Assembly: GCA_022775085.1 (NCBI GenBank)
Contig: JALFJQ010000068.1
Span: forward strand, 1 to 64,000
Source: Clostridiales bacterium
GTDB taxonomy: Bacteria > Bacillota > Clostridia > Oscillospirales > Oscillospiraceae
Direction: 5' to 3'
DNA: 64,000 nt
Positions 25,070-39,639 of this stretch are shown piece by piece (position 1 is the first letter of the stretch; every line of letters begins with the position of its first letter). Under the pieces are notes generated by a model. The model saw only the letters and a list, made by a program, of their open reading frames with translations. It ran no database searches and was not told the DNA's origin. The translations under genes were made by a program, and so were the position numbers.

Positions 25070-25327
25070 CGGCACCATAGGAACCGCTCCCTGTCAGCAG
25101 ACAGGTGAAAAGCAAAAATCTTTTTGCCAGGATTATGCGTGGGAAACGCAATGCCCGTTTGCCTTGTGAGATGGCACTCCACAAGGATTTTCGGCGCACA
25201 ATGGTGGATATTGAAATCTTCGTTGACCGGATCGCAGATATACATGTCCGCCCCGTCGAATGCCGCATAATCCCCCAATTCCTGCAAACAATACCACTGG
25301 GAATTTACCGCAAGGAGAGGAATATCA

Positions 25328-25501
25328 ATGAAAGCAACAGGCATCGTTCGCCGGGTGGACGATCTGGGAAGAATCGTCATCCCGAAGGAAATAAGAAGAA
25401 CCCTTCGTATCAGAGAGGGCGACCCGTTGCAGACATCATTGTCACGGTGGGAGAAATACTGTTTTTCTATGTTGGATTTGGCCAAACGGCGGGGGTGGTA
25501 G
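25328..25501 (+). pseudogene. spoVT: spoVT 5' fragment, interrupted after codon 33
   Basis: The ATG at 25328 has AAGGAGAGG upstream and encodes the AbrB-type DNA-binding start of SpoVT: MKATGIVRRVDDLGR, IVIPKEIRRTLRIREGDP. The match stops exactly at GACCCG (25421-25426). The next 24 codons (LQTSLSRW to KRRGW, stop at 25499) are foreign. The rest of SpoVT, beginning LEIYTEKDGG, is found 13.8 kb away at 39196-39639, fused to a serine recombinase. The 33 + 147 codons together give 180 residues, essentially the family length. Upstream, 25070-25327 holds no gene I can support. Confidence 0.93.
25411..25436 (+). other. Left attachment site (attL) of the spoVT element
   Basis: CAGAGAGGGCGACCCGTTGC marks the switch from spoVT to element sequence. 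It shares GACCCG and the spaced pattern G-GG-GACCCG-TG-AGA with 39184-39202. Large serine integrases need only a short identical core. Confidence 0.8.
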
Positions 25502-25591
25502 TTGTACATAGTGACAACAAAGAGAGCCGAAACTGTGCGTATACGAAAGGGGTAAATTGAGACGAAAGAAGTCACTTCCTGCGAATTTAAC

Positions 25592-25807
25592 ATGGACACC
25601 GCCTGCGTGGAGCTTCACTTTTCCGATGGCAGCATGGTCGCTATCAGCACCATCGCCGTGGAAAACGAAGTTGCAGACAGTATGTATCAACGCTCAGAGT
25701 TGGATTGGCTGATTTACAATAAGCCAATGGAGTACGCTCGGTTCGTCCTCTCCGGCGGCTTGGAGGAATACCTGAAAGGTCCGGCTGAACACCAGTTGGC
25801 TGATTAA
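25592..25807 (+). CDS. Small DUF6061-like protein
   Basis: A 71-residue acidic protein (CVELHFSDGSMVAISTIAVE, then NEVADSMYQRSELDWLIYN) resembling small hypothetical proteins found on clostridial mobile elements. The frame stays open upstream through TKEVTSCEFN to an ATT at 25556, with AGGGGT before it, so a non-ATG start and a protein of 83 residues are possible. The function is unknown. It is the first gene inside the element's left end. Confidence 0.6.
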   Translation: MDTACVELHFSDGSMVAISTIAVENEVADSMYQRSELDWLIYNKPMEYARFVLSGGLEEYLKGPAEHQLAD

Positions 25808-25864
25808 CTAAATAACCACGGCGCAGCCCACCGTTCCATCCGACCGGTGGGCTGTAATACTTAC

Positions 25865-25911
25865 GAACAAATTCCATTCGCACTTACATCACAGAGCAGA
25901 GAGCATCGTAT
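25865..25911 (+). repeat. 47 bp direct repeat, left copy
   Basis: Identical to 35413-35459: starts GAACAAATTCCATTCGC and ends GAGAGCATCGTAT. It is transposase coding sequence at both sites. Confidence 0.95.
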
Positions 25912-26138
25912 ACGATCCCATCCAAAAGTAATGTGACCGAGCCTTGGTTCTGTGATTTCCACACCTATAAGGAACGCCACCTGATTGAGTGTTTCTTCAA
26001 TAAACTTAAAGTTTTCCGCAGGGTCGCTACACGCTATGATAAGCTTGCTGTGTCCTTTCTTGCTTTTGTCCAGCTTGCTTCCATTTGGATTTTGTTGAAA
26101 TAGCACAAGAATACTATGTTTTCAGATAGGCTCTAAAA
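25865..26138 (+). pseudogene. IS5-type transposase, C-terminal fragment with right inverted repeat
   Basis: Frame from 25866: TNSIRTYITEQRASY, TIPSKSN, then HTYKERHLIECFFNKLKVF, RRVATRYDKLAVSFLAF and stop TAG at 26101. This is the C-terminal third of an IS5-family DDE transposase, including the Y(2)R(3)E(6)K-type signature (YKERHLIECFFNKLK). The terminal repeat GTTTTCAGATAGGCTCTA is at 26118-26135; a close match is found at 57459-57476. The N-terminal two thirds are absent. A fragment ending in the same 47 bp lies at 35363-35459. Confidence 0.85.
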
Positions 26139-26212
26139 ACTCGTATAAATCCCCCTGAAGCGGCGTTGGTATTTCCAAAGTCTGCTTCAGGGGGATTTCT
26201 TTTATTGTTTTA

Positions 26213-26971
26213 TCATTTTCCGTAGGTCAGGCCAAATCTGGCATAGGCTTCGGGCATTTCCTCCGGGCGAAGCTCTCTGGCTGTGACTGTGCCGTTATGG
26301 ATTTCCTTATACAGGTTCCCGTCCAGGGTTCGGCGGCCGTCCAGGGTCTTCAGAGCGAACATCTCCTGCTTGTTGAACGGGGATTCCGGATGCTTTTCGC
26401 AGTAGAAGTTCAGAGCCACAAAATCTGCCACCAGCTGGGGTTCCTCAGTGAAGGAATAGAACTTGCGCCAACTGCCCTTGTACAGATCCCAAAGCACCCA
26501 ACCCAGGAAGTCTTCCTTTTCCAGCCGATAGCTCTCGCCGAACTGCTCCTGCACCAGACCCTCCACCAGGCGGATGGGCTCCCGTTGGGCCGTTTCGCCG
26601 ATGCCCACATCGCACAGCCAGACCCCGTCGGTGGCCTGCACACGCATCACCCGATGGCGGCGCATGGGCGGCGTGGGTTCCCCCCGGAGATAACGGGCGG
26701 CGTAGTCCGTTACTCCGTAGCCAAGGCAGCGCAGAAGATTTCCGAAGCTCCCGTTCAGCTCAAAGCACAGACCGCCCCGGCCCTCCGTGACAATTTTCCG
26801 GAAAAGGGCATCCGCCTCCAGAGAGGTGGGAATATCCCGGAGAATATCCAGATTCTCGTAGGGAACCGCGGTGCAGTGCGCCAGATGGAGCTTTCGCAGC
26901 AGTGCGGAATCAGGGACAATTTTTTCCGGCATTTCCAGTCCCAGCCGATGAAAATACGCATTTACGTCCAT
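26213..26971 (-). CDS. nat: Arylamine N-acetyltransferase
   Basis: Transfers acetyl from acetyl-CoA to arylamines, hydrazines or related amines. The 252-residue protein has the full catalytic triad in context: Cys in GRGGLCFELN (about 70), His in RHRVMRV (about 108) and Asp in LCDVGIG (about 123). The ATG at 26971 overlaps the preceding oxidoreductase gene by 10 bp, so it is the last gene of the sugar operon. Its role there is unclear; it may modify an aminated or aromatic substrate. Homologous NAT-fold enzymes in biosynthesis act as amide synthases. Confidence 0.92.
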   Translation of the reverse strand: MDVNAYFHRLGLEMPEKIVPDSALLRKLHLAHCTAVPYENLDILRDIPTSLEADALFRKIVTEGRGGLCFELNGSFGNLLRCLGYGVTDYAARYLRGEPTPPMRRHRVMRVQATDGVWLCDVGIGETAQREPIRLVEGLVQEQFGESYRLEKEDFLGWVLWDLYKGSWRKFYSFTEEPQLVADFVALNFYCEKHPESPFNKQEMFALKTLDGRRTLDGNLYKEIHNGTVTARELRPEEMPEAYARFGLTYGK

Positions 26972-27942
26972 TTGCTGACCTCTTCCAGAATTTCCATGAC
27001 CGTGAGCAGCTGCTCCTGGGAAACATAGGGCGTGGGAACACCCTCCCGGATGCACTGGGCAAAGTGCTTCAGTTCGTTATAGTACCATCCGCAGGGCGGC
27101 ACATTGATGCCGGTGGAGATCTCCACCTCGTCCTTGGTATCAAACACTCTGGGCGGTGCGTCAAAGGTATAGGCCGTCATGGTTTTTCCGTCGTTGATGA
27201 CCACCGCATTCTCAAAGTAGACCCGCCAGCGGGCGGTCCAGGGGCTGTCGGCGTTGAACCAGGCGGCCTCGCCGTTTACATGCTTGTCACCGAAATCGTA
27301 ATCGATCCGCAGATGCTCCGCGTAGGTCTTGCCCCGGCCATGGCAGGTGTTGATCGTAAAGCGCTCGGGCTTGCCGAACAGGGAGACGATCACGTCCAGA
27401 TCATGGATATGCAGATCAAAGGGCAGCAGCCCGGACTTGCTCTTGTCAAACAGCCAGCCGCCGACGGCCCACCGGGGTGCCGCGGACAGACGCTCAAAGC
27501 TGGCATCCAGAACCTTGCCGTATTCTTCGGATTTCACCAGTTGACGCAGAGCCTGGATTTCTTTGGTAAATTGCAGTACCTGAGCAATGTACAGATGACA
27601 GCCCTTGGCCTGGGCGGTATCCAGCATTTCCTTCGCGTCCGCGTAGTGCAGGGCAATGGGCTTCTCGCAGATGGTGTCCATGCCCAGATTCAGGCTTTCC
27701 ATGACCATATCGTGGTGAAGGAAGGTAGGCGTGCAGATATCCACCGCGTCCAAATCGCACTCCTGAACCATCTGCGTGATAGAGCGGTACAGAGGAACGC
27801 CCCACTGGGCAGCCGTGTCAGCCGCACTGGGAGCCGTATCGCACAGCGCGACCACGGACGCGTTTTCCACCACCTGCCAGTTGGCAAAGTGAACCCGGCC
27901 CATGCCGCCGCCGCCCACAATGCCGATTCTCAGATTTTTCAT
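26962..27942 (-). CDS. Gfo/Idh/MocA-family oxidoreductase (1)
   Basis: A 326-residue NAD(P)-dependent dehydrogenase. The N-terminal Rossmann motif is IGIVGGGGMGRVHFANW, and the family motif CEKPIAL lies near 95. The C-terminal alpha/beta domain has HIHDLDVIVSLFG, with the conserved His-Asp pattern of substrate binding. Family members oxidise sugars, inositols or their acids. The start is the ATG at 27942 with GGAGG six bases upstream. It lies between the first TIM-barrel gene and the N-acetyltransferase. The substrate cannot be named from sequence. Confidence 0.9.
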   Translation of the reverse strand: MKNLRIGIVGGGGMGRVHFANWQVVENASVVALCDTAPSAADTAAQWGVPLYRSITQMVQECDLDAVDICTPTFLHHDMVMESLNLGMDTICEKPIALHYADAKEMLDTAQAKGCHLYIAQVLQFTKEIQALRQLVKSEEYGKVLDASFERLSAAPRWAVGGWLFDKSKSGLLPFDLHIHDLDVIVSLFGKPERFTINTCHGRGKTYAEHLRIDYDFGDKHVNGEAAWFNADSPWTARWRVYFENAVVINDGKTMTAYTFDAPPRVFDTKDEVEISTGINVPPCGWYYNELKHFAQCIREGVPTPYVSQEQLLTVMEILEEVSKWT

Positions 27943-27976
27943 AATGACCTCCATAAGCGTAGGGGACTGTCCGAGC

Positions 27977-28792
27977 TCACAGGACGAAGCCGTGCTCTTT
28001 CAGATACCGGGCGGAATCCAGCACCGCCTGATTGACCTCGGCCAGATCCTTGGGCCCCGCGGCGGTGAATTCGATTTCGATGGAGAAGGGGCAGCGGTTT
28101 TCGGCCTTGTCCAGCATGGCAAACAGTTCCGGGAAGGGAACGTAGCCCTTGCCCAGAGCGGGGAAATCCCATTCCTTCCGGCCGCCGGCCTTGTCCTTCA
28201 GATGGATATAGCCAACCCGATCCATACAGGCCCCCAGATCCTGTACTACGTCCACGTCACCGTAGAAAATAGCGTTGGCAGTGTCGTAGTTGATCCGCAC
28301 CCGGTCAGAGTCTACCAGGTTGACGATCTCCTTCAGAATCGCGCCGGTGCCATGGTCGCCATGAACCTCCAGCACCAGAATCATGTCATATTTTTCAAGA
28401 TAGGGAAGGAACCCCCGGATATGCTCCGCTACCACCGCGTTGGAGGCGACGGCATTGTCCTTCAGGTGCGCTTCGCCAACGGACGAGACAATATACCTTG
28501 CCCCGAAGAAATGGGCCAGACGGATATTCTTTACGAAATCCGGGATTCGCGCCGTGTCCATCAGATTGGTGTGTCCGCTCATGGCGAAGGGGATCAGGCC
28601 TGCCTCGTCCAGCTTGTCCTTCACTTCCAGCAGCCGCTGGAAGCTCTGATCCGGGAACACATGCTCCGTCCAGCCCTTCGTGGCGGTCAGCTCAATGTAA
28701 TGGAAGCCTGCGGCCCGGATGCCGGCAATGGCCTCCTCAATGGAATAGCCATGGTAGCAATTGGAGTTGACCGCAATGATTCTGTCCGTCAT
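27977..28792 (-). CDS. Xylose-isomerase-like TIM-barrel protein (1)
   Basis: A 271-residue AP-endonuclease-2/IolE-like TIM barrel. It shows the metal-binding carboxylate and histidine pattern: LVLEVHGDHGTGA (about 143), NYDTANAIFYG (about 170), HLKDK (about 198), and FSIEIEF near the C-terminus. Enzymes of this fold isomerise, epimerise or dehydrate sugars and inositols. The ATG has GGAGGGAG upstream. It lies in an operon with a second barrel protein and two dehydrogenases, typical of catabolism through keto intermediates. Confidence 0.88.
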   Translation of the reverse strand: MTDRIIAVNSNCYHGYSIEEAIAGIRAAGFHYIELTATKGWTEHVFPDQSFQRLLEVKDKLDEAGLIPFAMSGHTNLMDTARIPDFVKNIRLAHFFGARYIVSSVGEAHLKDNAVASNAVVAEHIRGFLPYLEKYDMILVLEVHGDHGTGAILKEIVNLVDSDRVRINYDTANAIFYGDVDVVQDLGACMDRVGYIHLKDKAGGRKEWDFPALGKGYVPFPELFAMLDKAENRCPFSIEIEFTAAGPKDLAEVNQAVLDSARYLKEHGFVL

Positions 28793-28805
28793 GGAATCTC
28801 CCTCC

Positions 28806-29729
28806 TCAAATCAGGAAATTATCCAGATACCGCTTGCTCAGGCGAATGGAATTGAGAATGTCCTCCCGGCTTCCCTCGAAGGCCTTGTCCTCCACTTCAA
28901 TGACGGCGCAGCCGTTATAGCGGATGTCGTTCAGGGCGGAGACAAAGGCAGACCAGTTCACATCTCCCAGGCCGGGGATTTTCGGGGACATATAGTCCAG
29001 CGGATATGCCAGCACGCCGCACTCGGCCAGCTTTTCGGGATAGAGCTTGATATCCTTAAAGTGGACGTGGAAAATGCGGTCGGAGAAGTCGTAGATGGTC
29101 TTCACATAGTCCAGCCCCTGCCAGACGTAATGGCTGGGGTCGAAATTCAGGCCGAAATTGGGGGAGGGGATGATCTCGAACAGCTGCCGGTAGATTTTCG
29201 GGGTGCACATCAGGTTCTGTCCGCCGGGCCACTGATCCGCGCCGAAGAGCATGGGGCAGTTCTCGATGGCGACCTTCACGCCGCACTGCTCGGCCAGAGC
29301 GATGATGTCGGGCCAGATCTGCCGGAACAGCTCGATGTTCTCTTCGAAGGTCTTATGCTGATCCTTGCCGATAAAGGTGGTGACCATGTTTACGCCCAGC
29401 TTGGCGGAAGCCCGGATGACGGCCTTCAGGTGGGAAATCGCCGCTTCCCGCTTTTCCAGGTCCGGGTCCATGGTGTTGGGATAGAAGGCCAGAGAAGAAA
29501 TCTCCAGTCCCTTGGACGAAGTCAGCTTCTTGACATAGTCGGCGTAGGAATCGTCCTGGCAGACACGCTCGCAGTCAATGTGGCTCACACCGGCGTAGCG
29601 GCGTTCCGCTTTGCCCGCGGGCCAGCAGGCTACCTCCAGGCATTTGAAGCCCATCTGGGAGGCGATGTCCACAACTTCCTCAAAGCTCCATCCATCCAGA
29701 ATGGCGGTGAGCAGACCGAATTTCATCAT
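28806..29729 (-). CDS. Xylose-isomerase-like TIM-barrel protein (2)
   Basis: A 307-residue TIM-barrel protein of the same superfamily, only distantly similar to its neighbour. Metal-site motifs are GVKVAIENCP (about 148), GLNFDPSHYVW (about 187), FHVHFKDIK (about 215) and AVIEVEDKAF (about 280). The start is ATG ATG at 29729 with AAGGAG nine bases upstream; the longer frame to 29828 overlaps the upstream gene and is unlikely. An epimerase or isomerase role is likely, specificity unknown. Confidence 0.88.
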   Translation of the reverse strand: MMKFGLLTAILDGWSFEEVVDIASQMGFKCLEVACWPAGKAERRYAGVSHIDCERVCQDDSYADYVKKLTSSKGLEISSLAFYPNTMDPDLEKREAAISHLKAVIRASAKLGVNMVTTFIGKDQHKTFEENIELFRQIWPDIIALAEQCGVKVAIENCPMLFGADQWPGGQNLMCTPKIYRQLFEIIPSPNFGLNFDPSHYVWQGLDYVKTIYDFSDRIFHVHFKDIKLYPEKLAECGVLAYPLDYMSPKIPGLGDVNWSAFVSALNDIRYNGCAVIEVEDKAFEGSREDILNSIRLSKRYLDNFLI

Positions 29730-29742
29730 AACGGTTTTCTCC

Positions 29743-30786
29743 TTATCTGTTTTCGGGGATTTCCACGGCCGTTCCCAGCTCGGAAGACCGCAGAGAGGCA
29801 AACACGGCACGCATGGCAGCCAGGGCACTGCGGCCGGAGATCTCCGGCTCCCTGTTGTTCACCAGGCTGTCCATCCACAGGTCGATGACGCCGGACTTGG
29901 TCTGATTGTCATTGGTCTGAATGGCTTCCACATCATAGCTGATCTTGCTGCCGTCGGCCAGGATCACCTTAATGGCCGCGGCGGGATCGTCATAGATGCG
30001 CATAATGCCCTTGGTGCCGTAGAGAATGGTAGAATTGTCCTCCGCACCGTAGTAGGTCCAGCTGGCGGTCATGGTGCCCATGGCTCCGCCGGACAGCTCG
30101 TAGACGCAGATGGCATTGTCGTCCACGCCAATCAGATTGCCGGAGGCATCCTTCTTGTCCAGGGTCGTCACCCTGGCAGTGGTGCGGATTACCCGCTGAC
30201 CGGTGAGGAACTGGATCAAGTCGGTCTTGTGGATGCCGAGATCGGCCATGGCGCCCATGGCAGCCCGATTCTTGTCGAAGAACCAGGTGTTCTTGCCCGG
30301 GTCAATGGACCAGGTCTCCGGGCCGCCGTGGCCGAAGATGGTCCGGAAGGTGATGATATCGCCGATCAGACCCTCCACGATCAGCTTCCGTGCCAGGCTG
30401 TGGGCCTTGGCAAGACGCTGGTTGTGACCGATCATCAGAAATTTCCCGTTTGCGTCGGCAGCCTGAACCATGGCTTCGCAGTCGGCGAGGTTGGTCGCCA
30501 TGGGCTTTTCACACAGAACGTGCTTGCCCGCATTCAAGGCTGCGATGGTCAGCTCCGCATGGGCAAAGTTGGCGGCGCAGATGGACACGGCCTGGATTTC
30601 CGGCTCTGCCAGCAGCTCCTCTACGGTGGCGTAGGCACGGCCGCCGTACTTAGCCGCCAGCCCTGCTGCCCGCTGCTGATTGATGTCGTAAAAGCCCACC
30701 AGTTTTGCTTCTGGATGGGCCGCGTACTCCGGAATGTGGCGAACCTGTGCGATTTTGCCGCAGCCGATGATACCGATTCCAAACAT
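29743..30786 (-). CDS. Gfo/Idh/MocA-family oxidoreductase (2)
   Basis: A 347-residue dehydrogenase with GIIGCGKIAQVRHIPEY (Rossmann), VLCEKPMATNLAD (about 90, catalytic lysine motif) and MADLGIHKTDLIQFLTG (about 180, His in substrate site). It differs clearly from the first oxidoreductase, so the pair may perform an oxidation and a later reduction on the same carbon skeleton, a scheme known for such operons. The gene lies 20 bp after the permease gene. Confidence 0.91.
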   Translation of the reverse strand: MFGIGIIGCGKIAQVRHIPEYAAHPEAKLVGFYDINQQRAAGLAAKYGGRAYATVEELLAEPEIQAVSICAANFAHAELTIAALNAGKHVLCEKPMATNLADCEAMVQAADANGKFLMIGHNQRLAKAHSLARKLIVEGLIGDIITFRTIFGHGGPETWSIDPGKNTWFFDKNRAAMGAMADLGIHKTDLIQFLTGQRVIRTTARVTTLDKKDASGNLIGVDDNAICVYELSGGAMGTMTASWTYYGAEDNSTILYGTKGIMRIYDDPAAAIKVILADGSKISYDVEAIQTNDNQTKSGVIDLWMDSLVNNREPEISGRSALAAMRAVFASLRSSELGTAVEIPENR

Positions 30787-30806
30787 AGCTGTTTCCTCCC
30801 GATTGG

Positions 30807-31838
30807 TTAATTGCTGTCCTTCTTCTGCAGAAGAACGGCGAAGATGATGATGAGTCCCTTGACGGCCTCACACAGGAAGGTGGGCACGCCGACGGTATTG
30901 AGGATGTTGTTCATAACGCCGATGATGAGCATTCCCACGAACGCGCCCACCAGGCTGCCCTTGCCGCCTGCCATGGAGGTTCCGCCCACGACGACTGCCG
31001 CGATGGCGTCCATTTCATAGCCGGAGCCCGCATTGGCGAAGTCCATGGAACCGATTCTGGCAATGTAGATGATTGCGCCGATGGCGCACATCACGCCGCC
31101 CAGCGCATAGACCTTCATCTTGACCCAGGCCACATTGATGCCGGAGAGCTTGGCGGCTTTTTCATTGGAGCCGATGGCGATGGTCTGGCGGCCGAAGGCG
31201 GTCTTCCGGAAAATAATGTGCATGATCACAACCATGATGACCCAGTACAGGATAGGCAGGATGATCTGATTTCCAATCCGGGCGGAGGCGATTGTCTTGA
31301 AACCCGCAGGAACGGAAGGATTGAAGGTCTGGGTCATCTGCTGGGTCACGGACCGGAAAATCTTCATGGTACCCAGGGTGGCGATAAAGGGCGGCAGTTT
31401 GCCGTAGGCAATCAGCGCGCCGTTCAGGCCGCCCATCAGCACGCCCATGAGGATCGCCGCGAGAATGGCGATTACATAGGCAAGGGGGCCGGTGATGCCC
31501 ATGGCGGCCAGAGGGCCGTTGGTCTCATCGAGCATATAGAGCAGCCCCGCACCGATGGCGCAGAGGGTGGAGCCTACCGAAAGATCGATGCCGCCGGTAA
31601 TGATGGCAAAGCACATGCCCAGGGCGATTACGCCCGCGTAGGCGTTGTTCCGGAGAATGTTCAGCCAGGCGATCCACATTTTGCCGAGCATGCCCGTAAA
31701 GGAGCCTGCGTTGAAGCCCTGCACCGCGGCCTGAATCAGGATCATCACCAGCAGGGCAAACAGGGTGGACAGGAAGCTGTTCTTCGACCAGATTTCCCCG
31801 ACGCTGCCGATGGTTCGCTTGCTTGTTTTGTTATTCAT
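30807..31838 (-). CDS. Sugar ABC transporter permease (RbsC-like)
   Basis: A 343-residue inner-membrane protein with about 8-10 hydrophobic segments. It carries the branched-chain/monosaccharide permease signatures ALGMCFAIITGGIDLSVGS and AVVVGGTSMAGGKGSLVGAFVG. It forms the membrane channel with the ATPase and lipoprotein encoded upstream. The ATPase stop and the permease start are only a few bases apart. The substrate is likely a pentose, hexose or inositol, by family. Confidence 0.93.
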   Translation of the reverse strand: MNNKTSKRTIGSVGEIWSKNSFLSTLFALLVMILIQAAVQGFNAGSFTGMLGKMWIAWLNILRNNAYAGVIALGMCFAIITGGIDLSVGSTLCAIGAGLLYMLDETNGPLAAMGITGPLAYVIAILAAILMGVLMGGLNGALIAYGKLPPFIATLGTMKIFRSVTQQMTQTFNPSVPAGFKTIASARIGNQIILPILYWVIMVVIMHIIFRKTAFGRQTIAIGSNEKAAKLSGINVAWVKMKVYALGGVMCAIGAIIYIARIGSMDFANAGSGYEMDAIAAVVVGGTSMAGGKGSLVGAFVGMLIIGVMNNILNTVGVPTFLCEAVKGLIIIFAVLLQKKDSN

Positions 31839-31841
31839 GGG

Positions 31842-33347
31842 TTACATTGCCCCCTCTTTCTCGGATTGATTGCCACCGGTGGCAAGATACATAATGTGCT
31901 TTTCGTTCATATCCTCTCCGGATACATGACCTACGATCCGGCCGTGGTACATCACAAGGCTGCTGTCGCAGACGCGGATGATCTCCTGGGCCTCGGAGCT
32001 GAGAACGACGATTGCCACGCCCTCCTGGGCCAGGCGATGGATGATGCCGTAGATCTCTTCCTTGGCACCTACGTCAACGCCCTGGCTGGGATTGTCCAGG
32101 ATCAGCACCTTGGGGTCGGACATGACCCACTTGGCCAGGACTACCTTCTGCTGGTTGCCGCCGGAAAGGCTGGTGATCAGGTCATACTTGTCGCCCATCT
32201 TGATCCGCAGCTTCTCCTGCTGGATCCGGAAAGCCTCCTGCTGCTGATTCTTGTTGATGAACAGTCCCCGGACGAATTTGGGCAGCTGCACAATGGTGCC
32301 GTTGTCCAGAATGGACATATCCTTTAGGATGGCGTTTTCCTTACGGTTTCTGGGCAGATACGCCAGACCTTCCAGAAGCGCCTGGTGGGTGTCCGTCAGA
32401 TGGACTTCCTTTCCGCCGATTACCACCTTGCCGGTGTAACGGCCGCCCATGGCACCAAAGACCGTCTGGAACAGCTCGCTTCTGCCGTCACCCAGCAGGC
32501 CTGTGATTCCCAGCACCTGACCGGCCCGGACGGAAAGGGAGATATCCCGGAAATGCTTCCCGTCGCTCAGATTCTCCAGCCGCAGCATTTCATCGCCATA
32601 GTTCTGATCCCGTTTCAGGGATTCCGTCCGGATTTCGTGGCCCACCATATACTCGGCCAGCTTCTTGGAATTGGTATCCTTCACCAAACCCTGGGCCACC
32701 ATACAGCCGTCACGCAGGACGGTATAGCGGTCGCAGATTTCCATGACCTCGCCAAGCTTATGGGAGATGAAGATAATTCCGACGCCCTGCTCCTTCAGCG
32801 TGCGCATCATGGCGAACACCCGCTGAATTTCCGGCTCCGTCAGAGAGGTGGTAGGCTCGTCCATAATGATAATGGAGGCATCCTGCATCAGGGCCCGGGA
32901 AATTTCCACAATCTGCTTGTAGCTGGCATCCAGATCCCGAACCATGGTATTGGGATCCAGCTCCAGATTCATGCGCTCGAACAGCTCCTTCGTCTTTTTC
33001 CGCATCAGGGCCTTGTCCAACAGACATCCTTTGTGGGGCAGATGGGTCAGGAACATATTCTCGTAGATCGTCAGATCGTTGATGAGATTCAGCTCCTGGT
33101 GGATGAATCCCACGCCGGAGTCCAGCGATTCCAGAGGCGTTGTAAAATGTACTTCCTTCCCGTCCAGGCAAATGGTGCCGCTGTCGGCGGGAAGAACGCC
33201 GCCCAGAATATTCATCAGGGTCGATTTGCCGGCACCGTTTTCTCCCAGCAGCGCGCAGATTTCCCCGGTTCCCAGGGAAAAGTCCACATCCCGTAGTACA
33301 CGGTTCGCCCCGAAGGATTTGTTGATTTTTTGCATTGAAAGATTCAA
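31842..33347 (-). CDS. Sugar ABC transporter ATP-binding protein (RbsA/MglA-like)
   Basis: Two fused ABC domains, about 501 residues. Domain 1: Walker A GENGAGKST (about 38), Walker B IIIMDEPTTSL. Domain 2 lacks a perfect Walker A (GLLGDGRSEL, as usual in this family) but has LSGGNQQKVVLAKW and VLILDNPSQGVD. The start is uncertain: TTG at 33347, with a GGAAGTGA site close by, gives MNLSMQKINKSFG; ATG at 33335 has no well-placed site; a longer frame to 33425 runs into a hairpin. It energises uptake together with the permease and lipoprotein. Confidence 0.92.
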   Translation of the reverse strand: MNLSMQKINKSFGANRVLRDVDFSLGTGEICALLGENGAGKSTLMNILGGVLPADSGTICLDGKEVHFTTPLESLDSGVGFIHQELNLINDLTIYENMFLTHLPHKGCLLDKALMRKKTKELFERMNLELDPNTMVRDLDASYKQIVEISRALMQDASIIIMDEPTTSLTEPEIQRVFAMMRTLKEQGVGIIFISHKLGEVMEICDRYTVLRDGCMVAQGLVKDTNSKKLAEYMVGHEIRTESLKRDQNYGDEMLRLENLSDGKHFRDISLSVRAGQVLGITGLLGDGRSELFQTVFGAMGGRYTGKVVIGGKEVHLTDTHQALLEGLAYLPRNRKENAILKDMSILDNGTIVQLPKFVRGLFINKNQQQEAFRIQQEKLRIKMGDKYDLITSLSGGNQQKVVLAKWVMSDPKVLILDNPSQGVDVGAKEEIYGIIHRLAQEGVAIVVLSSEAQEIIRVCDSSLVMYHGRIVGHVSGEDMNEKHIMYLATGGNQSEKEGAM

Positions 33348-33386
33348 ACGATCACTTCCATTCTTTTGCTTGTAGTAAATTCCCAC

Positions 33387-33475
33387 AAAAAAGTGCCGAA
33401 AGCGCCGGAAAGGCGGCTTCGGCACTTTTTCATAGGAAACGCGCGGGGCTATGGCTACCCAGCCATAGCCCCGCG
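33387..33475 (-). terminator. Two strong hairpins between lipoprotein and ATPase genes
   Basis: Hairpin A (33387-33431): AAAAGTGCCGAA with TTCGGCACTTTT plus an inner GCGCC/GGCGG stem, next to T runs on both sides. Hairpin B (33444-33475): GCGGGGCTATGGCT with AGCCATAGCCCCGC. They lie in the 190 bp between the binding-protein and ATPase genes. Partial termination or 3' protection here would make the binding protein more abundant than the rest. Confidence 0.8.
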
Positions 33476-33540
33476 TAAAGTTCTAGATGCCGCCCTTGAC
33501 TCTGCCGCAGCCGACAGGCGCGGAGATCGGGAAGATCCGC

Positions 33541-34560
33541 TTAGTAAACGGTGTTCTCGGGATCCAGGTAGTCAGCCACGTTATCCGCGCTGACGATGGT
33601 GGTGGGGATCACAACGACGGACTCGGGATGGCCGCCCTGCAGCACATCGATAGCGGTGCGGATGGCATCCTGAGACATTGCGGGAGAGTACAGAGCGGAA
33701 GCCAGACCCAGATCCGCATAGGCAGGATCGTTAATCATCCGGAAGTACTCCTGGCAGCCGCCGCCGCCGGTGATGGCCTTGATGTCCTTACGGCCGGCCT
33801 CGGTGATGGCCTGGATCGCACCCATAGAGGTCTCGTCATCCATGGAGAAGACGGCGTCGATCTGGGGGTGAGCCTCCAGAACGTCGGCCATGCCGGCCAG
33901 ACCCTTGTCACGGGCGAAGGACTCCAGCTGAACCTCGAAGATGTTGGACTCGTCGTAGCTGACTTCCTTCAGGTAGTCATAGAAGCCCTGCTTCCGCAGC
34001 TCGCAGACGGAGCCGGAGGAGGGAACGTCCATCACAACGATATTGGCGGCGGGGCCGACCTTCTCGGTGATGTACTTGGCGGACTGATAGCCCATGTCGT
34101 AGTTATCGCCGGTAACCTTGTAGATACCCTGGCAGTCCACATCCACGTCAAAGTTCACAACGGGGATGCCGCTGTCGATGATGTTCTGCAGAGCGGTCTC
34201 CATGCCGGTCCACTGGGGCCAGGAGACGATGACCGTTGCGCCCCAGGCAACCAGATCGTCCAGAGCGGTGGTCATGGAAGCGGCGTCCTTGGAAGTGGTG
34301 ATCATGTAGTCCAGGTTGTTTTCCTTGCAGTACTTCTCAGCGTAGTAAGCAACACCGGCAACCCAGCCGTGAGTAACGTCGGGAGCGGCGATGCCGACCT
34401 TGATTTCCTTGGCAGCGGGAGCCTCGGTCGTGGCGGGAGCCTTCGTCTCGGCAGCGGCAGGCGCTTCGGTTGCGGCCTGGGTGGGGGTGCTCTGTGCGCC
34501 GCAGGCGGCCAGGGACAGAACCATAGCCAGCGTCAGCAGCATAGCAATCAGCTTTTTCAT
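33541..34560 (-). CDS. Sugar ABC transporter substrate-binding lipoprotein
   Basis: A 339-residue periplasmic-binding-protein family 1 (ribose/galactose type) lipoprotein. The signal peptide MKKLIAMLLTLAMVLSLAAC has its lipobox at LAAC (Cys 20), followed by a flexible Ala/Thr/Pro/Glu linker to about residue 48. The mature domain contains IKVGIAAPDVTHGWVAGVAY, VNFDVDVDC and GDNYDMGYQSAKYI. It should capture the substrate outside the membrane. It is the first gene of the operon and has its own strong promoter. GGAGG precedes the ATG. Confidence 0.94.
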   Translation of the reverse strand: MKKLIAMLLTLAMVLSLAACGAQSTPTQAATEAPAAAETKAPATTEAPAAKEIKVGIAAPDVTHGWVAGVAYYAEKYCKENNLDYMITTSKDAASMTTALDDLVAWGATVIVSWPQWTGMETALQNIIDSGIPVVNFDVDVDCQGIYKVTGDNYDMGYQSAKYITEKVGPAANIVVMDVPSSGSVCELRKQGFYDYLKEVSYDESNIFEVQLESFARDKGLAGMADVLEAHPQIDAVFSMDDETSMGAIQAITEAGRKDIKAITGGGGCQEYFRMINDPAYADLGLASALYSPAMSQDAIRTAIDVLQGGHPESVVVIPTTIVSADNVADYLDPENTVY

Positions 34561-34648
34561 TTTGTATTCCTCCAGTTCTATTCGATTCACGGCCATGTGC
34601 CGTTGAATACGCAAGCACCAAATTCAAGACACCGGTACTTGTAGAGTC

Positions 34649-34677
34649 TATATATCATAAACAGTTTAAAATGTCAA
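34649..34677 (-). promoter_or_regulatory. Promoter of the sugar transport operon
   Basis: TTGACA (34672-34677), a 17 bp spacer and TATATA (34649-34654) on the minus strand, about 90 bp before the lipoprotein gene. No regulator gene lies next to it. Confidence 0.85.
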
Positions 34678-34822
34678 TTGCCTTCACAAAAATAGCATAT
34701 TGCACAAAGCTGCTGCTTGACTTCCGAGCAGATTGCCCAATTTCTTTTGCAAAATTCTGCTTTCCGGGCTTTTCCGGTGCAGGGCTTCCGTTTCGCAGGG
34801 CGGTTTTTCGGATAGCCGCCCA

Positions 34823-35129
34823 TGCCGACTACGCACTGTCAGCGGTGACACGCCATCGATACCGGGCGGTACCCAAAGGTCTGACGATTTCGGACCAGCC
34901 GTGGGCGCGTTGGCTGTTGGCCCTGCCGACTGCGTACTGACAGCGGCGACACGCCATCGATACCGGGCGGTACCCAAAGGTCTGACGATTTCAGGCCAGC
35001 CGCGCGCGCATTGGACGTCGACCCTGCCGACTGCGCACTGTCAGCGGCGACACGCCGTCGATACCGGGCGGTACCCAAAGGTCTGACGATTTCAGGCCAG
35101 CCGTGTGCGCGTTGGCTGTCGGTCCTGCC
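34823..35129. repeat. Three tandem copies of a 101 bp unit
   Basis: Units begin TGCCGACT at 34823, 34924 and 35025, with a truncated fourth start at 35125. Each contains CACGCCATCGATACCGGGCG, GTACCCAAAGGTCTGACGAT and a CCAGCCG...GCGCGTTGG segment. The units differ by a few substitutions. They are non-coding. A lone relative is at 7860-7935. The rest of the 34678-34822 gap shows no gene. Confidence 0.9.
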
Positions 35130-35135
35130 GACCCG

Positions 35136-35362
35136 CTAGGCGGCCTCCCGCATTCGCTGGCGGACTACGTTGGCAATCCGGGCGATGAACTCCCCGTTGG
35201 TGGGCTTGCCCCGGTCGGGGCTGACGGTGTTGCCGAAGTAGCCGCAGAGAATGTCCATGTCCGCCCGGGTCCAGGTGACCTCGATCAGGTGGCGGATGCC
35301 CCGCTCCACCCGGGAGGCGGTGGTGTCGAACTTGGCGGCGATCTGGGGATAGAGGCCGAAGG
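35136..35362 (-). pseudogene. Spo0A C-terminal DNA-binding domain fragment
   Basis: Minus frame ending TAG at 35136: GLYPQIAAKFDTTASRVERG, IRHLIEVTWTRADMDILCGY, then TVSPDRGKPTNGEFIARIAN. This matches the sporulation regulator Spo0A C-terminal domain (recognition helix region SRVERxIRHxIE). The N-terminal part is replaced at about 35363 by IS5 transposase sequence, so the gene is truncated. Short Spo0A-C proteins occur on clostridial elements, so this may not be the chromosomal spo0A. Confidence 0.8.
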
Positions 35363-35459
35363 TTCGGAAGTGAAAATTTCCGGAAGCAACATTCTGGGTG
35401 ATAAAGCATACGGAACAAATTCCATTCGCACTTACATCACAGAGCAGAGAGCATCGTAT
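35363..35459 (+). pseudogene. IS5-type transposase, internal fragment
   Basis: Plus frame: GSEVKISGSNILGDKAYG, then TNSIRTYITEQRASY. It contains the second catalytic Asp region (ILGDKAYG) of an IS5 DDE transposase. It ends in the same 47 bp with which the fragment at 25865 begins, and continues in frame into it if the two ends are joined. Confidence 0.8.
35413..35459 (+). repeat. 47 bp direct repeat, right copy
   Basis: Identical to 25865-25911 and in the same orientation. Confidence 0.95.
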
Positions 35460-35830
35460 CCCCGTGCTATATCAATTGCCACATCCGTGAAGCAGTGAAC
35501 AAAAACACCTTTGGCCTCAATCTTATTGCGAATATATAGGTAAAGCTGGCGTGACGAACCACACCTATATTGCTCACTTAAATCGATAGAGAATTGTTTG
35601 CGAATTGCACTAGCCCATTCATCAACAGAATTGCTATCTGGGATAATCGGATTAAAATTTGGTGGAGCTATTCCAAATTCATCATCGGCACTTAGCAGAA
35701 AATCGCGCTCAAGTAGGACATCTATCATAGCAATATTCTATGCACTATCATCGGTATTTGCTGTTCCATACATCGTTCGCATATTCCGGACGCTTGGAAT
35801 CCTTTTTAGGGGAATATCGATAGGGTTCAT
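35460..35830 (-). pseudogene. ImmA/IrrE-family peptidase gene, truncated and with a nonsense codon
   Basis: Starting at ATG 35830 the frame reads MNPIDIPLKRIPSVRNMRTM and then meets TAG near 35740. After it the frame resumes MIDVLLERDFLLSADDEFG, DEWASAIRKQFSIDLSEQYR and IEAKGVFVHCFTDVAIDIAR. This is the N-terminal part of the ImmA/IrrE metallopeptidases found next to element repressors. The HExxH zinc site is lost because the sequence stops at the 47 bp repeat. Both lesions show the gene is dead. Confidence 0.75.
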
Positions 35831-35849
35831 ATAAAGTCCTGCAAAAGGT

Positions 35850-35927
35850 ATGCGCTATCGGGAAGTGCTGGAACTTGCTGATGTGCTGGGCTATGAGATT
35901 GTCTGGCAGAAGCGGCGGGAAGATTGA
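35850..35927 (+). pseudogene. 3' fragment of a small HTH gene
   Basis: Encodes MRYREVLELADVLGYEIVWQ and KRRED, nearly identical to the last 25 residues of the intact gene at 44910-45146 (RYREALELADVLGYEIVWQK). The rest is absent. Confidence 0.8.
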
Positions 35928-36043
35928 CAGGGAACAGGTTTACAGACCAATGCGCGCAGGATTCCCTGCTGTAGAAAGGAGTACGCCTATTCGCATTAAA
36001 AAAGGAAACTCTGGGAACAATTCGGAGAAAAGGGGGCAGTAAC

Positions 36044-36307
36044 ATGGAAATTATTCAGGATGATGCAAAGAAGCTGGTACAGGTGTGGTTGAGCCGGAAG
36101 GAGAGTGGGGACGAGGCTCTGCAAAATCAGTTGAAGCCCATGTATGCCCAGTGGAAGCAGCAGAAATATATGGTGGCGGTATTTCACTCCGGGCAGGAGG
36201 ATTTGAAGGAGAACACCATGGCCCTGCTGGCGTATAACAAACGGCGCAGTGTGGAACTGGCGGTGCAGCGGGAGAAGAAGCAGCGGACGGCAAGCTTGGA
36301 ACGTTGA
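36044..36307 (+). CDS. Small conserved hypothetical protein
   Basis: An 87-residue, highly charged protein (DDAKKLVQVWLSRKESGDEA at the start, REKKQRTASLER at the end) without membrane segments. GGGGG lies eight bases before the ATG. It lies upstream of RhuM and the recombinase in the same direction, so it is part of the right-end module of the element. I do not recognise the family; a short helical protein is likely. Confidence 0.65.
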   Translation: MEIIQDDAKKLVQVWLSRKESGDEALQNQLKPMYAQWKQQKYMVAVFHSGQEDLKENTMALLAYNKRRSVELAVQREKKQRTASLER

Positions 36308-36466
36308 ATTCTGGGGCGGAGGGAAGAAATTTCCTCTGCCCATTTTCAATTTGTCCTTGCAAAGTACAGGAATATGATGTACAATATTATCTGTAATTAC
36401 ATCATTCAGCAAAAGACCACAATGTACTGCAAATACACTGATACAACGGATACTGGAGGGAAAGAA

Positions 36467-37483
36467 ATGGGAAAAGAAATTGCAAATCAGGGAGAAATTC
36501 TGCTGTACAATGACGAGGGCGAGAAGCAATATGTTAGTGTGATATTTGCGGAGGAAACCTTCTGGCTAAGTCAGAATGGTATGGCAGAGCTGTTTGACTG
36601 TACCCCAGAAAATATCATTCAGCATTTGAAGAACATATACGCTGAAGAAGAATTGTCCCTCGACGCAACTGCTAAGAAATTCTTAGTGGTTCGCAGAGAG
36701 GGCAACCGCAATGTGCAGCGCAGCATTGACCACTACAATCTCGATGCCATCATCGCCGTAGGCTACCGTGTCAACTCCAAAAAGGCCACCCGATTCCGCC
36801 AGTGGGCGACGAAAACGCTGAAAGAGTACATCCAGAAGGGCTTTGTTCTCAACGATGAGATGATGAAGAACGGCCGCCCCTTTGGCAAGGATTACTTTGA
36901 TGAGCTGCTGGAACGGATCCGGGAAATTCGTGCCAGTGAGCGGCGGGCCTATCAGAAAATTGCGGATGTGTTTGAACAGTGCAGCTATGACTACGACAAA
37001 AACAGCGAGACAACGAAAGCATTCTATGCCTTTGTCCAGAACAAGCTGCACTATGCCGTCACCGGCAAGACGGCGGCGGAGCTGCTTTCCCAGCGGGCTA
37101 CTCTGGACAGCCCCACCATGGGTCTGACCACCTGGAAGGGGGCACCGGATGGGAAAATTCTGAAAAGTGATACGCTGGTGGCTAAGAACTACCTGAATCA
37201 GAAGGAGCTTTCCCGGCTGAATCGGCTGGTGACGATGTTCATCGACTATGCCGAGCTGATGGCCGAGGACGAGCAGCTCATGTCCATGCAAGACTGGCTG
37301 AAAGAGACGGACCGGTTTCTGACCAACAACCGCCGCCAGGTATTGGACGGTAAGGGCCACATTTCCCGGGAGGCGGCGGTGAAAAAGGTCAGCGGCATCT
37401 ATGAGGAATTCCGCAAACGGCAGGATGCAGACTATATTTCCGAATTTGACCGCCAGACCGAAAAATACCTCAAGGGAGAATAA
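36467..37483 (+). CDS. rhuM: RhuM-family protein
   Basis: A 338-residue protein of the RhuM (virulence-associated) family. It has the typical start EILLYNDEGEKQYVSVIFAE, then ETFWLSQNGMAELFDCTPEN (a helix-turn-helix-like segment), YNLDAIIAVGYRVNSKKATR (about 105) and FRQWATKTLKEYIQKGFVLN. The biochemical function is unknown; the family is common on mobile elements and in accessory islands. The ATG at 36467 has GGAGGG upstream. The recombinase starts 2 bp after its stop, which suggests coupled expression. Confidence 0.92.
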   Translation: MGKEIANQGEILLYNDEGEKQYVSVIFAEETFWLSQNGMAELFDCTPENIIQHLKNIYAEEELSLDATAKKFLVVRREGNRNVQRSIDHYNLDAIIAVGYRVNSKKATRFRQWATKTLKEYIQKGFVLNDEMMKNGRPFGKDYFDELLERIREIRASERRAYQKIADVFEQCSYDYDKNSETTKAFYAFVQNKLHYAVTGKTAAELLSQRATLDSPTMGLTTWKGAPDGKILKSDTLVAKNYLNQKELSRLNRLVTMFIDYAELMAEDEQLMSMQDWLKETDRFLTNNRRQVLDGKGHISREAAVKKVSGIYEEFRKRQDADYISEFDRQTEKYLKGE

Positions 37484-37485
37484 CC

Positions 37486-39639
37486 ATGACCGAAACCTTT
37501 GACATTGCCGGCTACTGCCGCATCTCCGTAGACGAGGAACTGGACCGGGACAATGTGTCCATTGAAAACCAAAAAGCCATCATCCGGGATTTTGTGAACC
37601 GCCGATTTCCGGGAAGCAGCCTGACCTTTTATGAGGATCGGGATCGTTCCGGCTATACCTTTGAACAGCGGGAGGGCTACCAGACCATGCGAAAGGGGCT
37701 GATCCGGCATCAGTATGACATTCTGGTGGTGAAGGATTTTTCCCGATTTTCCCGGCGAAATTCCCGGGGACTGGTGGAATTGGAAGATTTGCGGGATGCA
37801 GGCGTTCGCATCATTTCCGTGGGGGACAACATCGACTTTCCCAACGATGACGACTGGCTGAAAATCCAGTTTCAATTCCTCATCAACGAAATGCCTGTCA
37901 CCGACACCAGCAAGAAGGTGAAAAACGTCATCCGGCGGCGGCAGGCCGACGGGAAATGGCTTTGCGCCGCCCCCTACGGCTATATCATCAACAGGCAGAA
38001 AGAATTTGAGATCGTCCCTACGGAAGCGGAGATCGTCCGGCAGATTTTTGACCTGTACAACAACCAGGGCTGGGGCTACAAGAAAATTGCCAACTACCTG
38101 ACGGAGCAGGGCATTCCAACTCCCCGGATGTCGGAGCAGATGCGCAAAGAGGCAGCGGGGGAAACCACCAGCCGGAAAACCAAGGCCGCCTGGGCCATCG
38201 TCACGGTGCAGGGGATTTTAGACAACGATTTTTATATCGGCACTTTCCGCCAGGCCAAATACACCCGAGCCAAGATCAACGGCAAGGATGTACGCCGGGA
38301 CGAGGAGGAACACATCGTCATTGAGAACCACCACCAGCCCATTATCGACTACCGCACCTTTGCCATCACCCGGGCCCTCCGGGAGAAGCGTTCCACCGCC
38401 AATTACCGGGGCGTGAAGAAGTACGACAACGTGTACTCCGGCTTCCTGTTCTGCGGGGACTGCGGCAGCCCCATGTTTGCCATGAGCCGCAGGGATTTGA
38501 GTGCCGCCTACACCTGCGGCACCTACCACCGCCGGGGCCGTTCCGGGTGCAGCTCCCACCACATCCGGGTGGACAAGCTGGACGAGCTGCTGAAAATCTA
38601 TGTGCGGCGGGTCATGGAGCATTCCCATGCCATGATGGAAGAACTGAACGCCGAACTTGCACGGCAGGATTCCGATGTGGTGGAAACCGAACAGTCCGCC
38701 GACCATCTGGCCCAGGTCATGGAGGAGCTGCGGGAGGAGCTGAAAGCCACCAAGCGGCAGCGCATCCGGGACATGGTAAAGCACCCGGATCAAGAGGAAC
38801 TTCTGGCGGAGACCTATGACGAGCTGGAAGCCGATCTGCAAAAGAAAATCGAGGGGTTGAATCACCAGATTAACATGCTCTCGGACAAACGGAACACCAT
38901 CATTCAGGCGGGGCGTGCCGCCAAAACCGCCATGGAGGTATTCGGGGACATTCTTTCCAAGGAAACGCTGGAACGAAACGATTTAGAACTGCTGATAGAG
39001 CGCATCGACGTATTCGAGGATCGGCTGGAGATCCGGCTCCACAGCGATGTGGACACCCTGCTCCACGTCAACCAGGGAGACATCGCCGTAAATTTTAATT
39101 TCGGCACGGAAAATAGCGAAAATACACTGATCCAGTCCTCCAAAAACCACGAGGACAAAGTTTTCCGTGTCAATGTTATCAGTGACGGTGACCCGCTGGA
39201 GATTTATACAGAGAAGGATGGCGGGGTGATTTTTCGGAAATATTCGCCCATGGGGGATTTACAGGAATTCGCGGCGCAGATGTGCGAGTCTATTGGCTCC
39301 GCCACGGGGCACATTGCCGCCGTATCTGACCGGGACAGCATCATCGCCCTCCACGGCGCGCCGAAACGGGAGCTGGTGGACAAGCCCAACTCCCCGGAAC
39401 TGGAAAAGCTGATGGAGCAGCGGAAAAATTATCTGTTCAAAACCGGTGATACCCCCATCTACGCTGCCGACGGGGAAGATAAATACCGCCTCGGCGCGGC
39501 GGCACCCATTCTGTCCCAGGGGGATCTGATGGGCTGCGTCATGCTCCTGCTGGGCGAGCATGACAGCCCCCTGTCAGAGAGCGACCAGTCCCTGACCAAA
39601 ACCGCCGCAGGCTTCCTCGGGCGGCAGATGGAAAATTGA
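37486..39639 (+). CDS. Large serine recombinase fused to the SpoVT C-terminus
   Basis: A 717-residue protein. Residues 1-150 form the resolvase domain: GYCRISVDEE with nucleophile Ser 14, and FSRFSRRNSRG. Next come the recombinase domain (about 170-270), a zinc ribbon (FCGDCGSPMF, then CGTYHRRGRSGC) and a coiled coil (about 375-480). From Leu 571 the sequence is SpoVT: LEIYTEKDGGVIFRKYSPMG, then a GAF-like domain to the end. The junction falls on the shared GACCCG. In a free circle the recombinase would instead end with the 24 codons at 25427-25501 (594 residues). The fusion arose by integration. Confidence 0.92.
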   Translation: MTETFDIAGYCRISVDEELDRDNVSIENQKAIIRDFVNRRFPGSSLTFYEDRDRSGYTFEQREGYQTMRKGLIRHQYDILVVKDFSRFSRRNSRGLVELEDLRDAGVRIISVGDNIDFPNDDDWLKIQFQFLINEMPVTDTSKKVKNVIRRRQADGKWLCAAPYGYIINRQKEFEIVPTEAEIVRQIFDLYNNQGWGYKKIANYLTEQGIPTPRMSEQMRKEAAGETTSRKTKAAWAIVTVQGILDNDFYIGTFRQAKYTRAKINGKDVRRDEEEHIVIENHHQPIIDYRTFAITRALREKRSTANYRGVKKYDNVYSGFLFCGDCGSPMFAMSRRDLSAAYTCGTYHRRGRSGCSSHHIRVDKLDELLKIYVRRVMEHSHAMMEELNAELARQDSDVVETEQSADHLAQVMEELREELKATKRQRIRDMVKHPDQEELLAETYDELEADLQKKIEGLNHQINMLSDKRNTIIQAGRAAKTAMEVFGDILSKETLERNDLELLIERIDVFEDRLEIRLHSDVDTLLHVNQGDIAVNFNFGTENSENTLIQSSKNHEDKVFRVNVISDGDPLEIYTEKDGGVIFRKYSPMGDLQEFAAQMCESIGSATGHIAAVSDRDSIIALHGAPKRELVDKPNSPELEKLMEQRKNYLFKTGDTPIYAADGEDKYRLGAAAPILSQGDLMGCVMLLLGEHDSPLSESDQSLTKTAAGFLGRQMEN
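39180..39205 (+). other. Right attachment site (attR) of the spoVT element
   Basis: CAGTGACGGTGACCCGCTGG: recombinase coding sequence to the left of GACCCG (39190-39195), spoVT codon 34 onward to the right. Recombination with attL at 25421-25426 keeps both reading frames. Confidence 0.8.

Follow-up and report, generated by a model that had tools for sequence, protein, structure and literature searches.

How does an intervening element survive when the gene that it interrupts belongs to the forespore? Elements with mother-cell targets are excised in a cell that dies, so their loss there costs nothing, whereas a forespore target raises the question of how the element survives removal from the germ line. 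This question arises at spoVT in the window, the whole stretch of DNA that we analysed (positions 1–64,000 of contig JALFJQ010000068.1, assembly GCA_022775085.1, Clostridiales bacterium, Oscillospiraceae), to which all coordinates refer. Here spoVT lies in two parts 13.8 kb apart, with an element encoding a large serine recombinase between them. We consider it fairly probable that this is an intervening element of the skin type, which its recombinase and a small directionality factor together excise in the forespore. At the level of sequence, a recurrent insertion at one codon, inverted repeats in attP, an in-frame fusion, discordant histories, conserved 5’ halves, intact recombinases and hosts that keep a sporulation gene form its basis, and from these we infer excision.

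spoVT is split in frame by a serine-recombinase element

Codons 1–33 of spoVT at 25328–25426, encoding MKATGIVRRVDDLGRIVIPKEIRRTLRIREGDP, and codons 34–180 at 39196–39639 give an uninterrupted, in-frame SpoVT of 180 residues when joined by script. A sequence-only reading of the window had given these coordinates, and they proved correct when we re-read the sequence. Pfam assigns the 3’ part to SpoVT_C (E 1.5e-38). No stop codon separates the recombinase from the junction, and the open reading frame (ORF) 37486–39639 encodes a single 717-residue protein with Resolvase, Recombinase, Zn_ribbon_recom and SpoVT_C domains, in which the spoVT 3’ half is in frame; the three recombinase families (PF00239, PF07508 and PF13408) all match above cut-off in this one protein. 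The six base pairs GACCCG are present at both element ends, at 25421–25426 and 39190–39195. A search of the window’s own genome with the joined SpoVT did not detect a second spoVT, its matches being the two halves and one weak AbrB-like match with 36% identity.

In the relative G009 the site is empty: its spoVT is uninterrupted, encodes a SpoVT 95% identical to that of the window, and is followed by folT (91% identical) and then parB/noc (noc 96%) in the same order as in the window. The sequence-only reading had expected a citC-spoVT-folT order in relatives, and this holds on the folT side in G009 but not on the other, where citC was not found within the 2.7 kb examined and the upstream neighbour resembles glf. 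Its proposals of a serine-recombinase element with attB inside spoVT, whose excision would restore the gene, are supported by the recombinase domains, by the att core at both ends, by uninterrupted relatives and by the in-frame joining of the halves, and the findings that could have spoken against them (a second spoVT, no uninterrupted relative, a 3’ segment unlike SpoVT) went the other way. Three points had escaped it: the fusion in frame of recombinase and SpoVT, a candidate directionality factor (36044–36307) and the retention that an excised circle would have in the spore. The parts of the window element and its flanks are as follows.

25265..25293, + strand: forespore-type (sigma-F/sigma-G-like) spoVT promoter motif GCATA-17-AACAATA (motif match)
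25328..25426, + strand: spoVT codons 1–33, the 5’ half (sequence and joined-SpoVT search)
25421..25426, + strand: attL core GACCCG, predicted crossover dinucleotide GA at 25421–25422 (att comparison)
25427..25501, + strand: left end of the element, with the attP right arm and a coding tail that continues the spoVT 5’ half (57-residue ORF 25328–25501)
25592..25807, + strand: DUF6061 small protein, cargo (family match)
26213..34614, - strand: cargo, comprising an arylamine N-acetyltransferase, two Gfo/Idh/MocA oxidoreductases, two xylose-isomerase-like TIM barrels, and a ribose-type ATP-binding cassette (ABC) permease, ATPase and binding protein
35993..36022, + strand: weak forespore-type promoter candidate GCATT-18-AACAATT upstream of the small ORF (89th percentile of controls)
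36044..36307, + strand: conserved 87-residue protein, candidate recombination directionality factor (conservation in relatives)
36374..37483, + strand: RhuM-family protein (PADLOC candidate PDC-S05), its stop codon lying 2 nt ahead of the recombinase gene
37486..39195, + strand: large serine recombinase (Resolvase, Recombinase and Zn_ribbon_recom), 570 residues before the junction
39169..39186, + strand: attP left arm within the 3’ end of the recombinase gene (att comparison)
39190..39195, + strand: attR core GACCCG
39196..39639, + strand: spoVT codons 34–180, the 3’ half, in frame with the recombinase (717-residue fusion 37486–39639)
39728..40882, - strand: flanking energy-coupling factor (ECF) transporter S-component, folT-like, downstream of spoVT in G009 too

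The same junction recurs in relatives

A genus search with the recombinase alone matched, at E 1e-100 or lower, 17 genomes in a sample of 100 others, and the SpoVT 3’ half follows the recombinase in all 17, one of which is start-truncated by a contig end. Named genomes (Oscillospiraceae, Ruminococcus and neighbours) yielded 80 recombinase loci, of which 77 pass into SpoVT at residue 34, the 33/34 junction, a count biased upward since the query (one of six peptide patterns) included SpoVT_C; the recombinase-only and SpoVT-only searches are free of that bias. One of the remaining three loci stops inside the recombinase and two continue into other sequence. When 50 carrier genomes were searched with the joined SpoVT, the 3’ half was found in an open frame of 707–810 residues without stops in 49, of which G147 additionally holds a whole spoVT. 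In 17 of the 50, the contig that carries the 3’ half also carries a 5’ half (one partial and degenerate) ~7–81 kb upstream in the same orientation; these 17 include the finished chromosome II of Ruminococcus bicirculans 80/3, where the halves are 20.2 kb apart. Because the same codon split recurs in dozens of genomes we reject a chance split. We also reject an assembly artefact, since these dozens of genomes are independent and the finished R. bicirculans chromosome, too, has the junction. The family is widespread among uncultured gut Clostridia, and cultured carriers exist, so that the prediction of excision can be tested; Pseudoflavonifractor MSJ-30, An85 and An386a are carriers whose records are not marked as metagenome-assembled genomes.

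A census of 136 genomes of the genus with SpoVT, counted by eye from the match listing, gave matches at 1e-13 in 110 and none in 26. Complete or near-complete spoVT is present in 80 (71 matching from residue 1 or 2 and nine from residues 6–10), a recombinase-fused 3’ half in 22, a 3’ half truncated by a contig edge in two, and a 5’ half alone in six. Four of the nine copies matching from residues 6–10 were read; one lies at a contig edge and three have codons 1–9 replaced by unrelated sequence, a type of damage distinct from the codon-33 split. In these three (L011 in G002, L025 in G017 and L027 in G016), and in the 5’ copies in L046 (G012) and L205 (G127), the replacing sequences have in common a YLT-like end that abuts codon 10; another element may insert into spoVT at this second site. 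Two further loci stand apart. At L147 11700–11800 (R. flavefaciens NALB_7963_3) a recombinase of the same family is followed by other sequence with the core GACGC, and the spoVT of that genome is whole. On contig G140:C23 (L194, L240 and L097), for which no end overlap was found, a spoVT 5’ half lies 18.5 kb downstream of the fused 3’ half on the same strand, an order that reflects either rearrangement or assembly error.

Recombinase and spoVT have discordant histories

Because the histories of recombinase and spoVT disagree, we conclude that insertion has recurred. The recombinases of L087 and L092 are 94% identical and their SpoVT 50%. Synonymous divergence (dS) is larger for spoVT than for the recombinase in 19 of 20 reciprocal nearest pairs, an outcome favoured by the choice of the pairs by recombinase similarity, and the neighbour pairs defined by recombinase (23) and by SpoVT (21) overlap partly, with 10 shared. 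L105 was dropped from the divergence tests. The trees and dS drew on a set of 68 loci, which leaves out L111, L114 and L115, because of their start offset, and loci with a truncated recombinase start. Between the window and MSJ-30, dS is 0.18 for the recombinase and 1.11 for the spoVT 3’ half. The two elements have in common a 3.8-kb right module (93.6% identity) and the left end; blastn aligns nothing else between them, and their cargo differs, the window carrying an ABC-transporter and sugar-metabolism operon and MSJ-30 other genes. In the reading that we prefer, members of this widespread family consist of an integration module that can exchange its cargo, and they use the REG-D-P motif of spoVT as attB.

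Movement between species is also what one would expect of a plain integrative element, for which spoVT would be a docking site, excision would be vegetative, rare and for transfer, and carriers would sporulate poorly or only after the element leaves. Relaxase/Mob proteins, which make up four of five near-recombinase ORFs tested in relatives (the five chosen by eye for their mobility-gene look), point the same way. However, the genus census contains no codon-33 split with visible context that lacks the recombinase. Taking this together with the promoters and cassettes described below, we regard a plain integrative element as a lesser but serious possibility.

The predicted attP lies within the recombinase gene

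Across relatives the 3’ end of the recombinase gene reads GTCAATGTTATCAGTGAC-GG(T/C)GACCC, and the sequence past the spoVT 5’ half is roughly GTCACTGACAACATTGAC. The attP arms that these supply are inverted repeats: in 19 elements a mean of 16.5 of 23 positions (range 7–21) are complementary compared to 6.2 (standard deviation 2.2) after shuffling, and the window arms have 15 of 23. The predicted crossover is the central, non-palindromic GA of GG(T/C)GACCC, in the Asp32 codon (codon 32) of spoVT. The family offers a large natural set of serine recombinases with defined attB and attP.

The tail after the 5’ half is coding in the spoVT frame, as the synonymous share of single-base codon changes in 21 tails is 0.48 in this frame compared to 0.24 and 0.23 in the others. 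Because the tail continues in the same frame, we infer that the recombinase encoded by a circle would natively end in this tail, and integration would exchange it for the SpoVT_C domain. This raises the alternative that the recombinase-SpoVT fusion is itself the functional product, SpoVT_C serving as an integration-dependent regulatory C-terminus and spoVT being dispensable. The in-frame junction in 49 of 50 genomes and the tail as an alternative C-terminus would fit, yet in-frame continuity follows simply from the position of attP within the recombinase reading frame. Furthermore, the 5’ halves should then drift, yet they are conserved and carry a forespore-type promoter, and most of the genus keeps a whole spoVT. 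We consider a functional fusion improbable.

The gene of a conserved small protein has forespore-type promoter motifs in many relatives

Statements that we take from papers cited by PMC number rest on excerpts of those papers. In C. difficile, spoVT expression drops in sigF and sigG mutants and its promoter resembles both consensus types (PMC3789822). Our forespore-type pattern used a sigma-F/sigma-G-like consensus, with the difference between the two sigma factors taken from the same source. It was written after viewing the spoVT upstream regions, which makes the spoVT count descriptive; among small-ORF upstream regions, only that of the window had been seen beforehand. Among split spoVT copies, 45 of 50 carry the motif in their upstream region, and among intact copies 13 of 21 do (0.38 and 0.07 expected from shuffling). 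Together with the C. difficile mutants, this agrees with the forespore, rather than mother-cell, setting proposed in the sequence-only reading.

Of the 62 loci with enough sequence, 56 encode the ~87-residue protein ahead of the recombinase, in most cases no more than 1.2 kb away. The forespore-type motif was found upstream of 17 of 55 small ORFs, where 0.75 were expected, and of one of 62 recombinase genes, where 0.95 were expected. By contrast, sigma-A-like sites (three or fewer mismatches) lie upstream of 47 of 62 recombinase genes, compared to 22 of 62 in one shuffle set. Scored with a weight matrix trained on spoVT promoters, the small-ORF upstream regions have a median of 9.6, compared to -3.3 in those of 1,017 other ORFs (p 8e-24, uncorrected for relatedness), and 16 of 55 small-ORF upstream regions exceed the 99th percentile, compared to none of 62 for the recombinase. 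Many of the small-ORF motifs have GG before the -10 element, and a conserved G at this place is a feature of sigma-F promoters (PMC3789822). The 87-residue protein has no Pfam or NCBIfam match, and among 120 listed matches of the 447 homologues found there was no Pfam domain or name; its AlphaFold2 model has a predicted local distance difference test score (pLDDT) of 86. We propose this protein as a candidate directionality factor of the recombinase. A forespore-type promoter on the candidate and none on the recombinase is not what a plain integrative element would predict.

Split spoVT appears to be retained for function

In the 5’ half, the ratio of nonsynonymous to synonymous polymorphism (pN/pS) is 0.105 for 49 distinct split genes, a set from which seven array or degenerate copies were excluded and in which at least one truncated copy (L011) remained, compared to 0.137 for the same part of 24 distinct intact genes. 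A normal start and no stop were seen in 53 of 59 5’ halves read, a set that includes duplicates. The sporulation gene spoIVA is present in 47 of 50 recombinase carriers, in a search that was positive only for B. subtilis among 14 control genomes; it is also present in the window genome (G000) and in seven relatives of the same genus with a split spoVT or a 5’ half alone (G018, G019, G020, G023, G026, G030 and G036). In C. difficile, spoVT is required for heat-resistant spores (PMC3789822).

These results bear on a further alternative, in which the insertion is dead and spoVT is a pseudogene in carriers, persisting by recency alone. Recombinase dS is often low (0.02–0.5) between species, so many insertions are young, and the replacement of the first nine spoVT codons in a few genomes of the genus suggests that loss is tolerated at times. 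However, the census contains no decayed recombinase beside a split spoVT, and both the intact 5’ halves and the presence of spoIVA in most carriers argue against dead insertions, which we think very unlikely.

A second forespore gene, sigG, which encodes a sigma factor, also seems to be split, at about residue 92–96, in G019 (L228/L227), G020 (L229) and G037 (L230/L231). In G019, whose spoVT is split too, the sigG parts are on separate contigs (L228, G019:C4, 5476–7754, and L227, G019:C36, 1353–2126), and a different large serine recombinase (584 residues) lies directly upstream of the sigG 3’ half. We found no literature on split sigG.

A model for excision in the forespore

Forespore excision, the reading that we prefer, could proceed as follows. 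The recombinase would be made vegetatively from its sigma-A-like promoter and, when alone, would favour integration. The 87-residue protein would be switched on in the forespore as directionality factor, attL x attR excision would join codons 1–33 to codons 34–180, and the restored spoVT would be expressed where its own forespore-type promoter acts. Because the circle would be trapped in the forespore, it could re-integrate when the spore has germinated and no longer contains the directionality factor; the inherited loss that the sequence-only reading had expected from forespore excision need not follow. The recombinase would carry a short tail at its C-terminus in the circle and SpoVT_C in the chromosome. 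A fuller version, with an obligate germ-line cycle of excision and return, a circle packed in the spore, the C-terminus as a switch that reports integration state, and array-building by alternative attL exits, we put forward tentatively, as possible but doubtful.

Several observations weigh against excision in the forespore. The attP junction expected of a circle was found in none of 136 genus genomes with two mismatches allowed, by a pattern able to match 14 of the 19 element sites examined, and in no viral contig by exact match. The window’s own small-ORF promoter match is weak, at the 89th percentile. This weakness and the lack of a circle in assemblies both favour a plain integrative element. 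A single subclade accounts for six of the 17 small-ORF motif hits, and these six may fall within coding sequence; recombinase upstream regions also score above controls (p 1e-6), although none lies beyond the 99th percentile. The RhuM gene stands between small ORF and recombinase in the window, and the small ORF is 3.9–8.2 kb away in three of 56 loci. Family and fold searches linked its product to no known protein (best fold-search E 0.36 in PDB and 0.10 in BFVD). The outer right attP arm of the window is unlike that of MSJ-30, its closest relative by recombinase. Conservation of the 5’ halves could partly reflect recent insertion, as vertical pairs are few, and a damaged spoVT can persist, because at least three near-complete copies (G002, G016 and G017) have codons 1–9 replaced and lack this recombinase. 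Finally, the window genome is an 82-contig assembly, and sporulation of the host is presumed.

An 18.3-kb viral-collection contig with this recombinase has one end exactly at the att core (L267 11771–11793). Its other end is not at attL and looks like mobilization genes, and we gave it no weight.

spoVT cassette arrays

In 13 genomes of the genus (G012, G033, G067, G073, G078, G093, G095, G112, G114, G184, G185, G202 and G205), one or more extra tailed 5’ halves precede a whole spoVT on the same contig. At L244 (G093:C13, 963–10050) there are six, with differing tails and one clearly degenerate, spaced ~0.7–2.5 kb apart with small cargo genes between them, one of which encodes an AbiD-like defence protein (E 8.8e-81). 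No recombinase was found in the array stretches examined. The recombinase-less cassettes examined precede a whole spoVT, which again argues against a plain integrative element. In G205 and G202 the promoter of the whole gene differs in type from that of the upstream copy, as if the cassette had supplied the promoter.

We hypothesize that these arrays are a spin-off of the element through alternative attL sites. A tandem of an old cassette and a new element would exit via the outer attL, the cassette would travel along to a new host, and a later exit via the inner attL would leave it before a whole spoVT. This would be a possible serine-recombinase route to cassette arrays. Integrons, which use a tyrosine recombinase, likewise form tandem arrays of small cargo units between repeated sites; the repeated unit at spoVT differs in being a promoter with a spoVT 5’ half, and the mechanism proposed there is deduced.

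Comparison with other intervening elements

Like other skin-like elements in sporulation genes, the window element splits its target into halves that join in frame and encodes its own recombinase adjoining the split gene. Its proposed layout resembles that of the C. difficile skin in sigK (CD1231/CD1234), where the recombinase is not cell-type-specific and a separate 72-residue directionality factor is under mother-cell control (PMC5025042). However, the skin target is a mother-cell sigma factor and its excision is limited to the mother cell, whereas spoVT is a forespore regulator, and the excerpt of that paper does not mention an in-frame fusion of recombinase and target like the one at spoVT. 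SP-beta in spsM of Bacillus subtilis has a vegetative serine recombinase, SprA, with a 58-residue sporulation-induced partner, SprB, and inverted-repeat att sites (PMC4191935). The spoVT element shares the type of recombinase and the inverted repeats, but SP-beta is a phage, is excised only in the mother cell and is kept as a prophage in the spore genome, while the identified cargo of the window is metabolic.

The gin element in gerE of Bacillus cereus ATCC 10987 is, like the spoVT element, a non-phage element, and its target is rebuilt during sporulation (PMC5595907), but it has three recombinase genes. The element yin in yabG, with a directionality-factor candidate that has a putative SigK promoter, was reported in one strain only (PMC10747680), in contrast to the many genera of the spoVT family. 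Both yin and vfbin (in spoVFB) are recombinase elements in sporulation genes whose targets are SigK-regulated or mother-cell genes. In these sources gerE works with the mother-cell sigma factor SigK and yabG is tied to SigK (PMC10747680), skin, vfbin and vrin are termed mother-cell-specific (PMC4191935), and kamA is interrupted as well, its compartment not being given (PMC8270828). Serine-recombinase integrative and mobilizable elements such as IME_Rho_tet share the recombinase type, a relaxase (in relatives of the window element), varied cargo and att inverted repeats (PMC12904643), but they use other target genes, and no relaxase is among the window ORFs tested. In open-access PMC listings we found no literature on spoVT split by a recombinase, integrase or mobile element, and none on att sites inside integrase genes. 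In the excerpts seen the named targets are sigK, spsM, spoVFB, gerE, yabG and kamA, with the element vrin, and we found no description of an intervening element in a forespore gene.

Cargo of the window element

Among the window ORFs scanned there was no relaxase or mobilization gene, some small ORFs lying outside the scan. A phage identity was rejected, as there were no structural or packaging genes among the element ORFs scanned with Pfam. There was no plasmid match at 1e-100, and the two matches in the phage collection are unverified fecal scaffolds, one of them again with a recombinase-SpoVT fusion. An identical 47-bp direct repeat at 25865–25911 and 35413–35459 brackets the metabolic cargo, which may have been inserted as one unit given these flanking copies; the left copy adjoins a DDE transposase remnant at 25936–26100. 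A tandem repeat at 34818–35132 (period 101 bp, 3.1 copies, 88% match) lies between the cargo and the integration module. The window genome holds two more recombinase fragments, G000:C53:2204–3034 and G000:C49:1894–2430, which are 85% and 87% identical; one of the two ends at a contig end and one has two stops.

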